From Candidatus Zipacnadia bacterium (GTDB lineage Bacteria; Armatimonadota; Zipacnadia; Zipacnadales; UBA5352), in NCBI GenBank assembly GCA_029820295.1, contig JALGVA010000035.1, positions 1 to 37,316 of the forward strand: 37,316 nucleotides of DNA, given 5' to 3'. The notes beneath the pieces are model-generated. The model made no database searches. It worked only from the letters and a program-made list of their open reading frames with translations, and was not told the DNA's origin. The position numbers and the translations under genes are program-made. How positions within the stretch are numbered: position 1 is the first letter of the stretch; each line of letters starts with the position of its first letter. Below are positions 1 through 34,003 of this stretch, one piece after another.

Positions 1-2748
1 CAGCGCCCGCGCCAGGCCCGGCGCTCGGCGGCACGCCGCCGCCACCTCGCGCGCGGTGGCCGCGCCCTCGATCTCGCGCGCGAGCACGATCGGCCCGTAA
101 CTCGGGAAGCCCAGCAGGTCCTGGTCGCGCACCACGCCCACGATCGCGCCCGCGTCGTCGGCGATGGCGAGGTGCTGTATGCCGTGCGCCTCCATGGCCA
201 TGAGCGCCTCGTAGATGCCCGCATGCTCGGGCACGCTGACGATGGGCGAGGTCATGACGCGGTAGACGGGCGTGGCCAGATCGCCGCCGCAGGCGACGAT
301 GCGCTCGCGCAGGTCGCGGTCGGTGAAGATGCCCACCACCTGCCCGCCCTCCGAGCGTACCAGCACCGCGCTGGAGCGGCTGGCGGTCATCAGGGCGGCG
401 GCATCGCGCACCGGGGTCTCGAGCGCGCAGAACACGGCGTTGCGGCCGATGCGGCCGACCGGCTCGTGCAGGAAGAGCATCGAGGCCTGCAGGCGCTCGA
501 TCATCGCGTCGCGCTCGGATGCCCGCTTCTCCTGCACGGTCACGTCCTCGATAGCGCCGTCGAGGAAGCGGGGCTCACCACGTTCGTCGGCGGCGGCCAC
601 GGCCCGGAGCGCCACGGTGCGCGTGGCGGCATCACCGTCGGTGACGTGCAGGCGGCGCTCCGCGCCGTGCTCGCGCAGCACCTCGGCGAGGAAGTCCTGC
701 CAGGCGCCCCCCTCGTCGAACAGCCCTGCCAGCGTGAGCGGGGCGTCCGGGTCGGCGTCCGGCCGACGCAGCAGCCTGGCCGCCGCCCGGCTGGCCGCCA
801 GCACCGTGCCCCGACCGGCGGCACGGGCGCGAAAGACCCCCGCCGGCATCGCCTCCGACAGCCGGCCCAGCGACTCGGCGCCGGGCACCGGGCAGACGTC
901 CTCCGCCTGCAGCGCGCCTGCGGTCGGGCCCAGGGGCTTGACCAGCAGCACCAGCTCGCTGCGCCCCGCGAAGGTGATGCGGCTGAGCGCCAGCACGCAC
1001 TCGACGGGCTCGCCGTCCCGGCGGCGCAACACTGCCTCGAAGCCGCCGGCCGGCTCCTCGCCCGCGACCGCGCGGTCGATCTGCTCCCACGCGCGCGTGT
1101 TGGCCGGCTCGTCGCGCGGCAGCACGTCATCGAGGTCGAGCAGCTCCATCTCGCGCGCACTCGCGCCCAGCATGCGCAGCATGATCGGGTTGGCGTAGTG
1201 CAGGCGGCCGTCGAGCACCAGCAGCGTGCCCTCGGTGGTGGCCTCGACCAACGAGCGGTAGCGCTCCGTGGACTCGCGCAGGCCCTCCTCGGCGTCGCGG
1301 CGTTCGCGCTCGAGGCGCAGGCTCTGCTGCATCACATACAGCAGCAGCAGCAGCACGATCACCGAGATCGCCACCGAGGCCTGCACCAGGCGGCGCTCGA
1401 CGGCCGCGATCTCCCGGCGCACGTCCTCGGTGTAGAGCCCGGTGCCGATGATCCAGCCCCAGGGCTCGAAGCCCTTGATGTACGACTGCTTGGGCGCCAG
1501 GCGCTCGGGGTCGTCCTTCCACTGCCACACGTAGTCGATGTAGCCCCGGTCCCGGCGGCGCACCAGCTCGGCGAACTCGACGAAGATGGGCACGCCGCGC
1601 GCGTCCCGGAAGTCGGAGACGTCCTGCCCGTCGAGGTCAGGGCGGTAGGGGTGCATGATCATGCGCGGCTGCATGTCCTGCAGCCAGAAGTAATCCTTGC
1701 CCTCGGGCCCGTAACGCAGCGCCTTGATGTCCGCGATGGCGAGGCGTTGCGCCTCCGCGCGCGACATCAGCCCCGCCTGCTCGTTGCGGTGGTAGGCTTC
1801 GAGGATGCTCCACGCCGAGTTGGTCAGCTCGCGGATCATCTCGCGCTTGCGTTCCATCAGCGAGCGCTCGAAGGCCGGAAGGAAGACCGCGAAGATCGCG
1901 GCCACGAAGAGCGCGACGGCGAGAACCGTCGGGAAGACCACGTGGAAGGCGAAGTGCCGGCGGCGCAGGCGCACGCGCGGGGCGGAGGTGGCCTCCGTGA
2001 TGACGCCGACCTGCCCGACCTCGGAGCCGCAGCACACCGCATCGCGGAAGAGCTTCCAGCGCTCGGTGGGCATGTCCACGCCCAGCCGCTGCTCGCCGAC
2101 GCCGCGGCGTTCGTGCGCATCCGAGCCGCCGCACACCAGCAACCCCACATCGTCCGCCATCGCCGCCAGGCGCTCGCGCTGCTCGGGCGAGTGTCCGCCG
2201 TAGTAGGCCTCGACGCCATCGAGGCCCGCATCGCGCAGCTCGGTCAGCAGGGCGCGCAGGTGCTCGGGGTCGGGCTCGAGCGCCAGCGGGTGGGCGAGGA
2301 AGGCCCGGCCGCCCGCGCGCCGGATCAGGGCAATGGCGTCGGCGATCTCGATCCAGCCGCCCGCGCCGGTGCCCGGGGCTCGCGAGTCCTGCGCCCGGCG
2401 GCGGGGGCGGTCGCGCATCGAGCCGGCGACGCTGTGCGGCGCCCGTGCCCGGCGCAGTGAGGCGAGGGTGGCGCGCAGCTCGGGGTCGTCGGGGTCGAAG
2501 CCGAAGCCGAGCAGGTGCGCCTCCCGCCCGTTGCAGCGCACCGTCAACTCGACGCCGGTGACGAAGCCGATGCCGCGCCGCGCCAGCCCGTGGCGGAAGC
2601 CGCGCAGGCCGTCCACGCAGTCGTGGTCGGTGAGCGATGCGAAGGCCACGCGGTCGTCGGCCAGCGCGGCGGCCAGCTCGCGCGGCAGCAGCGTACCGTC
2701 GCTGTAGGTCGAGTGGCAGTGGAAGTCGATGCGCGTGACCGCGTCCAT
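1..2748 (-). CDS. PHP-TM-Cache-TM-PAS-CBS signalling protein, 3' end beyond window
   Basis: The minus-strand frame is open from the ATG at 2748 to base 1, giving 916 residues without a stop. Residues 1-230 are a PHP phosphoesterase domain: DFHCHSTYSDGT near the N-terminus, then TDHD, LAHP and SDAHE, the usual metal-binding set. A membrane segment lies near 265-287, followed by a single Cache sensor domain ending in KGFEPWGWIIGTGLY (about 293-446). A second membrane segment is near 450-475. A PAS domain starting RYRSLVEATTEG, a weaker second PAS, and two CBS motifs (about 756-880) follow. The visible end resembles the stretch that precedes DUF294 nucleotidyltransferase domains, so such a domain may lie outside the window (inference). 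An in-frame ATG at 2787 is an alternative start; neither has a strong ribosome site. It is head-to-head with the gene at 2917. It probably couples an external ligand to cytoplasmic nucleotide or phosphoester chemistry. Confidence 0.85.
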   Translation of the reverse strand, partial: MDAVTRIDFHCHSTYSDGTLLPRELAAALADDRVAFASLTDHDCVDGLRGFRHGLARRGIGFVTGVELTVRCNGREAHLLGFGFDPDDPELRATLASLRRARAPHSVAGSMRDRPRRRAQDSRAPGTGAGGWIEIADAIALIRRAGGRAFLAHPLALEPDPEHLRALLTELRDAGLDGVEAYYGGHSPEQRERLAAMADDVGLLVCGGSDAHERRGVGEQRLGVDMPTERWKLFRDAVCCGSEVGQVGVITEATSAPRVRLRRRHFAFHVVFPTVLAVALFVAAIFAVFLPAFERSLMERKREMIRELTNSAWSILEAYHRNEQAGLMSRAEAQRLAIADIKALRYGPEGKDYFWLQDMQPRMIMHPYRPDLDGQDVSDFRDARGVPIFVEFAELVRRRDRGYIDYVWQWKDDPERLAPKQSYIKGFEPWGWIIGTGLYTEDVRREIAAVERRLVQASVAISVIVLLLLLYVMQQSLRLERERRDAEEGLRESTERYRSLVEATTEGTLLVLDGRLHYANPIMLRMLGASAREMELLDLDDVLPRDEPANTRAWEQIDRAVAGEEPAGGFEAVLRRRDGEPVECVLALSRITFAGRSELVLLVKPLGPTAGALQAEDVCPVPGAESLGRLSEAMPAGVFRARAAGRGTVLAASRAAARLLRRPDADPDAPLTLAGLFDEGGAWQDFLAEVLREHGAERRLHVTDGDAATRTVALRAVAAADERGEPRFLDGAIEDVTVQEKRASERDAMIERLQASMLFLHEPVGRIGRNAVFCALETPVRDAAALMTASRSSAVLVRSEGGQVVGIFTDRDLRERIVACGGDLATPVYRVMTSPIVSVPEHAGIYEALMAMEAHGIQHLAIADDAGAIVGVVRDQDLLGFPSYGPIVLAREIEGAATAREVAAACRRAPGLARAL

Positions 2749-33244: not shown

Positions 33245-33376
33245 CCACCCGAATCGGCACCGCGGACGGCGCTCGGCTGCGGCGGCGCGTGCTGCGGATC
33301 GCCGGGGACTGGGCTATCATCGGCCTCGGCCTCTATGCCATCGCCGGCGCCTGACCCGGCCGTGCGGAGGAGCATC

Positions 33377-34003
33377 ATGCGCTATCTGACCATCAGCCAG
33401 GCCGCGGAGCGCCTGCAGTTGAGCGTCCCCACCATCAAGCGCTACATCTACGACGGCGCGCTGGCCTCGACCAAGCTGCCCGGCGGCCAGCACCGCATCC
33501 CCGAGAGCGAGGTCGAGCGGCTGCTTGCCGGCGACGGCGAGCCGCCCCAGGGCGGGGACGCCGGCGACGCAGCGGGCGTCGAGGTCACGCCGGAGACGCG
33601 CCTGGAGGTCCTCGAGCGCTGGGCGACCGACCTGGAGGCCGAGGTGGAACGCCTGTCGAACGCACTGGCGGTGATATCACGCTATTGCGCCGACGTCCGT
33701 CCCGCCGAAGAGGATGCCACGATGCCCCGCCCGCAGCCGCGCGGCTCGATCCAGGTGCTCGGCCCCGGCTGCAAGCGCTGCCACGCTCTGCATGAGCTGG
33801 TGGTGCAGGTGGCGGCGGCCATGGGCCTCGCCGATGTCGAGGTCCGACACGTCACTGACCTGGGTGAGATCATCGCCTTCGGGCCCGTGGTGACCCCCGG
33901 GCTGGTCATCAACGGCGAGCTGGTGCTCAGCGGCTCGGTGCCCGCCGAGACCGAGCTGCGCGAGCTGCTCGCCGCCCACCTCGGACCGTCCACCCCGGCG
34001 TAG
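33377..34003 (+). CDS. Fusion of an excisionase/MerR-like HTH and a CxxC thioredoxin-like domain
   Basis: The ATG at 33377 follows GGAGGAGCATC. Residues 1-50 (YLTISQAAERLQLSVPTIKR, then GALASTKLPGGQHRIPESEV) are a helix-turn-helix of the excisionase/MerR type. A glutamate-rich helix (about 75-105) acts as a linker. Residues 125-205 form a small thioredoxin of the redox-active-disulfide family: SIQVLGPGCKRCHALHELV with Cys132 and Cys135, then PGLVINGELVLSGSVP. The frame is continuous across the junction, but an internal ATG at 33722 could also yield the thioredoxin alone. The obvious reading is a DNA-binding protein whose output depends on a dithiol switch; this is inference. It lies 38 bases before the alpha-mannosidase gene and could regulate it. 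Confidence 0.85.
   Translation: MRYLTISQAAERLQLSVPTIKRYIYDGALASTKLPGGQHRIPESEVERLLAGDGEPPQGGDAGDAAGVEVTPETRLEVLERWATDLEAEVERLSNALAVISRYCADVRPAEEDATMPRPQPRGSIQVLGPGCKRCHALHELVVQVAAAMGLADVEVRHVTDLGEIIAFGPVVTPGLVINGELVLSGSVPAETELRELLAAHLGPSTPA

Follow-up and report, generated by a model that had tools for sequence, protein, structure and literature searches.

GlnD carries a polymerase-beta-type nucleotidyltransferase and a metal phosphohydrolase of the HD type on one chain. DUF294 nucleotidyltransferases (NTases) are widespread and have been placed in acetate and pyruvate regulons. In Pseudomonas, a cytosolic member of the cNMP-CBS-NTase type belongs to the CrbS/R acetate regulon along with a DUF485 protein and ActP (PMC5715377), and a connection to pyruvate metabolism has been reported for the exonuclease that is its operon partner (PMC9927547). 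Furthermore, DUF294_C and the C-terminal domains of GlnD were assigned to one Pfam clan (PMC3710099). Among Cache-type receptors, PscD accepts glycolate, acetate and propionate, and pyruvate only weakly, with Tyr90, Trp92, His103, Phe126, Tyr143, Trp145 and Lys156 as contact residues, and Adeh_3718 was crystallised with acetate (PMC5062169).

We analysed a stretch of 37,316 nucleotides from a 'Candidatus Zipacnadia' genome (the window, numbered from base 1). On its minus strand, a reading frame runs stop-free from upstream of an ATG at position 2748 down to base 1. Since base 1 is also the end of a contig in this 331-contig genome, the receptor gene is cut off at its 3' side. Pfam and NCBIfam profiles combined with hydropathy gave the domain order PHP, TM, sCache_2, TM, PAS, PAS and paired CBS, and thereby recovered everything that the original prediction had read in this frame: the PHP motif set, two transmembrane segments, Cache, PAS and paired CBS domains. 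The features are as follows (the numbering of the profile-scanned protein equals the residue given here + 11).

1..2748, minus strand: receptor gene, N-terminal 916 codons, with the 3' end lost at the contig end (open frame, contig edge).
2029..2736, minus strand: PHP phosphoesterase, residues 5-240 (Pfam PHP/PHP_C, NCBIfam NF041577, fold match, conserved ligands).
2359..2448, minus strand: low-confidence, probably flexible loop, residues 101-130, at the place where RNase AM and Cv1693 have a longer insertion (alignment gap to 2YB1, pLDDT ~50).
1855..1959, minus strand: TM segment 1, about residues 264-298, with basic RLRRR before it (hydropathy, model helix 260-324).
1396..1860, minus strand: sCache_2 domain, residues 297-451 (Pfam E 3.6e-35, structure matches, conserved pocket).
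1312..1401, minus strand: TM segment 2, about residues 450-479 (hydropathy, model helix 440-503).
958..1266, minus strand: PAS domain 1, residues 495-597 (Pfam PAS and PAS_8).
544..879, minus strand: PAS-like domain 2, residues 624-735 (PAS_4/PAS_8 stretch, PAS topology in the model).
115..459, minus strand: CBS pair, residues 764-878 (Pfam CBS, two stretches, E 1.4e-19; Foldseek CBS-pair matches).
1..114, minus strand: start of a helical stretch that leads into DUF294 and DUF294_C in homologues (L014, L020 and others), remainder missing.

Because the two TM segments flank the Cache domain, the PHP domain at the N-terminus and the PAS and CBS domains towards the C-terminus should both be cytoplasmic, and the basic stretch ahead of TM segment 1 fits a cytoplasmic PHP domain. 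The AlphaFold2 model of the 916 residues reached a mean pLDDT of 80 and a pTM of 0.45, the latter meaning that the placement of the domains relative to each other is not reliable.

Scanning a single genome per species, we found 53 loci, most of which align with residues 1-916 over the full length (41-68% identity in that scan); overall, more than 30 independent loci cover essentially the complete 916 residues, with identities of 41-69%. The family occurs in Armatimonadota ('Candidatus Zipacnadia'), Chloroflexota (Anaerolineae), Verrucomicrobiota, Lentisphaerota, Fermentibacterota and Wallbacteria. Most complete homologues are single frames of 1225-1265 codons, the nearest being L014 (69% identical, 1227 aa), and the third-codon-position G+C is even along the window's gene (0.91-0.98). 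The architecture is thus firm: the open frame, the domain profiles and the many independent loci in several phyla confirm the PHP-receptor fusion, rule out an assembly join or frameshift near 1930-2030, which the original prediction had named as grounds for its refutation, and answer the concern that homologues might carry PHP and receptor parts as separate genes. Two homologues of Victivallis/PVC type (L051 and L053) have retained PHP, Cache, PAS-like and DUF294 domains, with no CBS pair detected.

It had also been guessed that a DUF294 nucleotidyltransferase lies beyond the contig edge. DUF294 itself (PF03445) was not found within the window, where the gene is cut before that region, and a search of the window's own bin gave no match to the missing 3' end. 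Every complete homologue of this architecture that was scanned, however, ends in DUF294 followed by DUF294_C (PF10335), in support of the guess. In the window's phylum, a strong DUF294_C match was found in 10 of the 201 sampled genomes, always in frames of 1231-1351 codons. The profile also matched in 119 of 247 Desulfobacterota-type genomes (a few matches being weak, and up to 6 per genome), where many of the proteins lie in frames of 400-520 codons. Homologues retain the NTase motif GS-x-GR-x-E...DQDN and a third Asp almost without exception (51-54 of 53-54), and the NTase aspartates are present in 52 of 53. We modelled the C-terminal 468 residues of L014 (pLDDT 88), for which the best non-CBS fold matches were GlnE (1V4A, 3K7D) and DrrA (6YX5), CBS pairs being matched as well. 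The predicted NTase fold of the homologues thus resembles that of the protein AMP-transferases GlnE and DrrA, at ~15% identity; neither of these is a receptor, and neither has a PHP domain. Toxin-like readings of DUF294_C based on its HEPN relatives (PMC3710099) were set aside, as the fold search led to GlnE/DrrA.

The PHP profile reached 26.0 bits when the protein was scanned and 29.2 bits in the scan of the genome, the latter above the Pfam cut-off of 26.4 bits, and PHP_C scored 26.6 bits, above its cut-off. The 3',5'-nucleoside bisphosphate phosphatase model matched the window protein with an E value of 8.6e-41. All nine PHP metal-ligand positions are present (H10, H12, D17, H42, E67, H78, H153, D210 and H212); across 44 sequences, eight of the nine hold 43-44 identical residues, and in a wider homologue set each position is kept in 45-47 sequences. 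In the AlphaFold2 model, the domain matches RNase AM (7UG9) with a TM-score of 0.85 by target length and also matches Cv1693 (2YB1). RNase AM (YciV) and Cv1693 share with the receptor the PHP fold and all nine ligands. However, the equivalog cut-offs for RNase AM and for the 3',5'-nucleoside bisphosphate phosphatase were missed (139.9 vs 400 and 105.7 vs 375 bits, respectively), and both enzymes carry a longer insertion between the PHP halves, which the receptor lacks, with query residues 104-117 spanning residues 101-155 of 2YB1. Since this insertion is missing, the substrate of the receptor PHP domain may differ from those of its enzyme relatives. Judging from the conserved residues, both the PHP and the NTase catalytic centres look active, and together with the homologue architecture this conservation supports the original view of a hydrolase and a transferase in one receptor.

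The closeness of the PHP domain to RNase AM and the 3',5'-nucleoside bisphosphate phosphatase speaks for an explanation centred on nucleic acids, in which the NTase would extend RNA or synthesise a small signalling nucleotide, with the PHP domain trimming or destroying the product. PolX, in which PHP is joined to a polymerase-beta-type NTase within a single polypeptide (PMC6616362), is a further point in its favor. Conversely, the predicted NTase fold groups with the protein-modifying enzymes GlnE and DrrA, and the RNase AM insertion is missing from the receptor. We consider this explanation unlikely.

This same explanation bears on the contrast between the PHP receptors and the cytosolic cNMP-CBS-DUF294 proteins, whose loci were sampled from Gammaproteobacteria, Myxococcota and Desulfobacterota-type genomes. 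Of the 32 cNMP-CBS-DUF294 genes, 27 have a DnaQ-type RNase_T gene no more than 1.5 kb away, vs none of the 46 PHP receptors, and no such gene was found in the window; the Fisher test gave p ~3e-16 with related loci treated as independent, so that this value is only a guide. PHP and the DnaQ-type exonuclease did not co-occur in the sampled loci. Such a distribution favors the nucleic-acid explanation, as the role of the PHP domain would then parallel one that the exonuclease may have for the cNMP-type relatives, and DnaE replicases offer a known case of PHP and DEDD exonucleases substituting for each other as proofreaders (PMC5636811). At seven Myxococcota/deltaproteobacterial loci, the exonuclease gene is beside or near a PHP-less receptor, and in most of these it accompanies a tandem or divergent cNMP-DUF294 gene. 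Larger exonuclease partners, of 665-720 aa, also occur (L105, 10760-12964; L140, 8410-10521), and that of L105 consists of PAS domains followed by RNase_T. A strict swap of PHP for exonuclease, which the Myxococcota loci had suggested, was weakened by this association with cNMP-DUF294 genes and by the PHP-less receptors L145 and L151-L156, which carry Cache and DUF294 with no exonuclease nearby; in three of these genomes, none was detected genome-wide. Because some PHP-less receptors have neither partner, the swap is suggestive only, and its lack of strictness tells against the nucleic-acid explanation.

About 14 receptors without a PHP domain keep the NTase site. On a tree built from the Cache domain to the C-terminal end, PHP presence needs to have changed only once (42 rows) or twice (60 rows), a count that cannot separate gain of PHP from its loss. 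A single homologue, L017, has a broken PHP site (H78D, H212G), and it is also the one without the second NTase aspartate (DQD to DQS); its Cache pocket has been preserved. Its genome (G193) encodes an intact receptor copy as well, L110, and L017 is perhaps a sensing-only or decoy copy. This joint loss, in one case, points to a shared pathway for the two sites.

These observations bear on two other explanations. The first is that the PHP domain only hydrolyses pyrophosphate or another NTase by-product, making the transfer irreversible. It would account for the presence of PHP and NTase on the same polypeptide with co-conserved sites; however, the receptors that keep the NTase site without PHP argue that PHP is not needed for transfer, and the nearest PHP relatives act on nucleotide phosphoesters, making this explanation highly improbable. 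The second holds that the two enzymes are independent outputs, for instance phosphatase action on nucleotides and, separately, modification of a protein, with only the input signal shared. Their location at opposite ends of the chain and their separability in evolution, as seen in the PHP-less receptors, agree with this idea, but PHP and NTase have stayed linked in different phyla, the tree calling for one or two changes, and both sites were lost in parallel in L017 (a single case). We regard independent outputs as quite unlikely.

For the sCache_2 domain, the best PDB matches were 5G4Y and 4K08 (39-40% identity, TM-score 0.90), which correspond to PscD in complex with propionate and Adeh_3718 with acetate. 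The predicted carboxylate pocket comprises Y353, W355, H366, F389, F392, Y406, W408 and K420. When the PscD contacts were aligned, all seven were matched (Y353, W355, H366, F389, Y406, W408 and K420), and these seven residues are conserved in at least 55 receptors. Given this match and conservation, a C2/C3 carboxylate is the best guess for the predicted ligand, and by sequence and model the receptor probably senses a compound of the acetate/propionate type. One pocket residue differs, as Met129 of PscD is replaced by Phe392, and this replacement may shift size selectivity.

Furthermore, 34 of the 46 PHP receptors have a sodium:solute symporter gene (SSF, PF00474) no more than 4 kb away, and 23 of the 46 have a DUF485-type gene no more than 6 kb away, the usual gene order being DUF485, SSF, receptor. 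The loci without a symporter are mostly from Zipacnadia, the window's own clade, and no symporter was found in the window. An SSF fragment is present elsewhere in the window's genome, at a contig edge (G000:C136:3-407), and is 37% identical to a receptor-paired symporter from another genome; this fragment cannot be joined to the receptor's missing 3' end. Elsewhere in the window, between 2917 and 36378, glycoside-hydrolase-like and related genes abound (GH42-like, GHL6, sulfatase, sugar isomerase-like, GH20b, GHL10 and GH38), which suggests glycan degradation, and these neighbors gave no link to the receptor. At 33335-34000 on the plus strand, HTH_17 and Thioredoxin_3 share one frame, possibly encoding a redox-linked regulator.

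We propose, tentatively and at somewhat less than even confidence, that the receptor is a GlnD-like nucleotidylation writer and eraser gated by a C2/C3 carboxylate and tied to symporter use. The sCache_2 domain would bind a small carboxylate of the acetate or propionate type outside the membrane, the C-terminal GlnE/DrrA-like DUF294 NTase would act as the writer, and the N-terminal PHP domain, a putative trinuclear-metal phosphoesterase, as the eraser; the signal-gated hydrolysis that had been suggested for PHP is likewise a proposed activity. CBS pairs typically sense adenine nucleotides, and the PAS and CBS domains would supply cytoplasmic inputs. By analogy with GlnD, ligand binding would shift the balance between attachment of a nucleotide to a partner and its removal. 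The likeliest partner would be either the sodium:solute symporter or its DUF485-type companion, whose genes neighbor that of the receptor in most relatives, and carboxylate uptake could thereby be tuned to supply and energy state. The domain architecture, the conservation of active sites and pocket, the fold matches and the gene neighborhood come from the analysis itself, and the ligand, the reaction, the opposed action of the enzymes and the target are inferred. The shared acetate regulon of the cytosolic Pseudomonas relative, a DUF485 protein and ActP speaks in favor of the proposal. The existence of PHP-less receptors implies that the writer need not have its eraser on one and the same polypeptide. 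We know of no precedent for the removal of nucleotides from a protein by a PHP domain, and our literature search found none. The absence of a symporter beside the receptor in Zipacnadia counts against the proposal. So does the finding that P. putida mutants in the cytosolic relative pp_0354 or in its partner exonuclease grow normally on acetate (PMC9927547).

The individual domains were already known, and the PHP-Cache-DUF294 combination is not in any paper that we found; our literature searches likewise returned none joining PHP with DUF294 or with Cache. The PHP-bearing receptor appears to be an undescribed signalling switch related to the GlnD/GlnE/DUF294 group. We consider it rather doubtful that it is a one-chain carboxylate-gated PHP/DUF294 writer and eraser and that, in addition, PHP domains and DnaQ-type nucleases are interchangeable NTase partners outside DNA replication. 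If true, this would reveal the reaction of the whole DUF294 family, and would provide a third setting in which PHP accompanies a nucleotidyltransferase, after the DnaE and PolX polymerases. Because a sensor of guessable ligand, a predicted writer and a candidate eraser are on one chain, usually encoded beside the likely target, the DUF294 question becomes directly testable.

Several described systems share parts of this design. The cNMP-CBS-DUF294 proteins of acetate/pyruvate regulons, Pflu5625 and pp_0354 (whose exonuclease is pp_0353), have in common with the receptor family the CBS pair, DUF294 and DUF294_C, and frequent SSF/DUF485 neighbors. They differ in having a cytosolic cyclic-nucleotide domain, absent from the window protein in the Pfam scan, instead of the TM-Cache-PAS part, and in that their counterpart to the fused PHP domain is a DnaQ-type exonuclease encoded by a gene of its own. 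The chemoreceptors PscD, McpP and Adeh_3718 share the Cache fold and pocket contacts of the window receptor, but their output is chemotaxis rather than an enzyme pair. PolX and DnaE also combine PHP with a nucleotidyltransferase on one chain; unlike the receptor family, they are template-directed DNA polymerases without a receptor. HD and ACT domains were absent from the window protein and the scanned homologues in domain scans. GlnD follows the same scheme as the PHP/DUF294 receptors, with an NTase and a metal phosphohydrolase on one chain; however, GlnD is soluble and uses HD for removal and ACT for sensing, whereas the receptor family has PHP and a membrane Cache domain.
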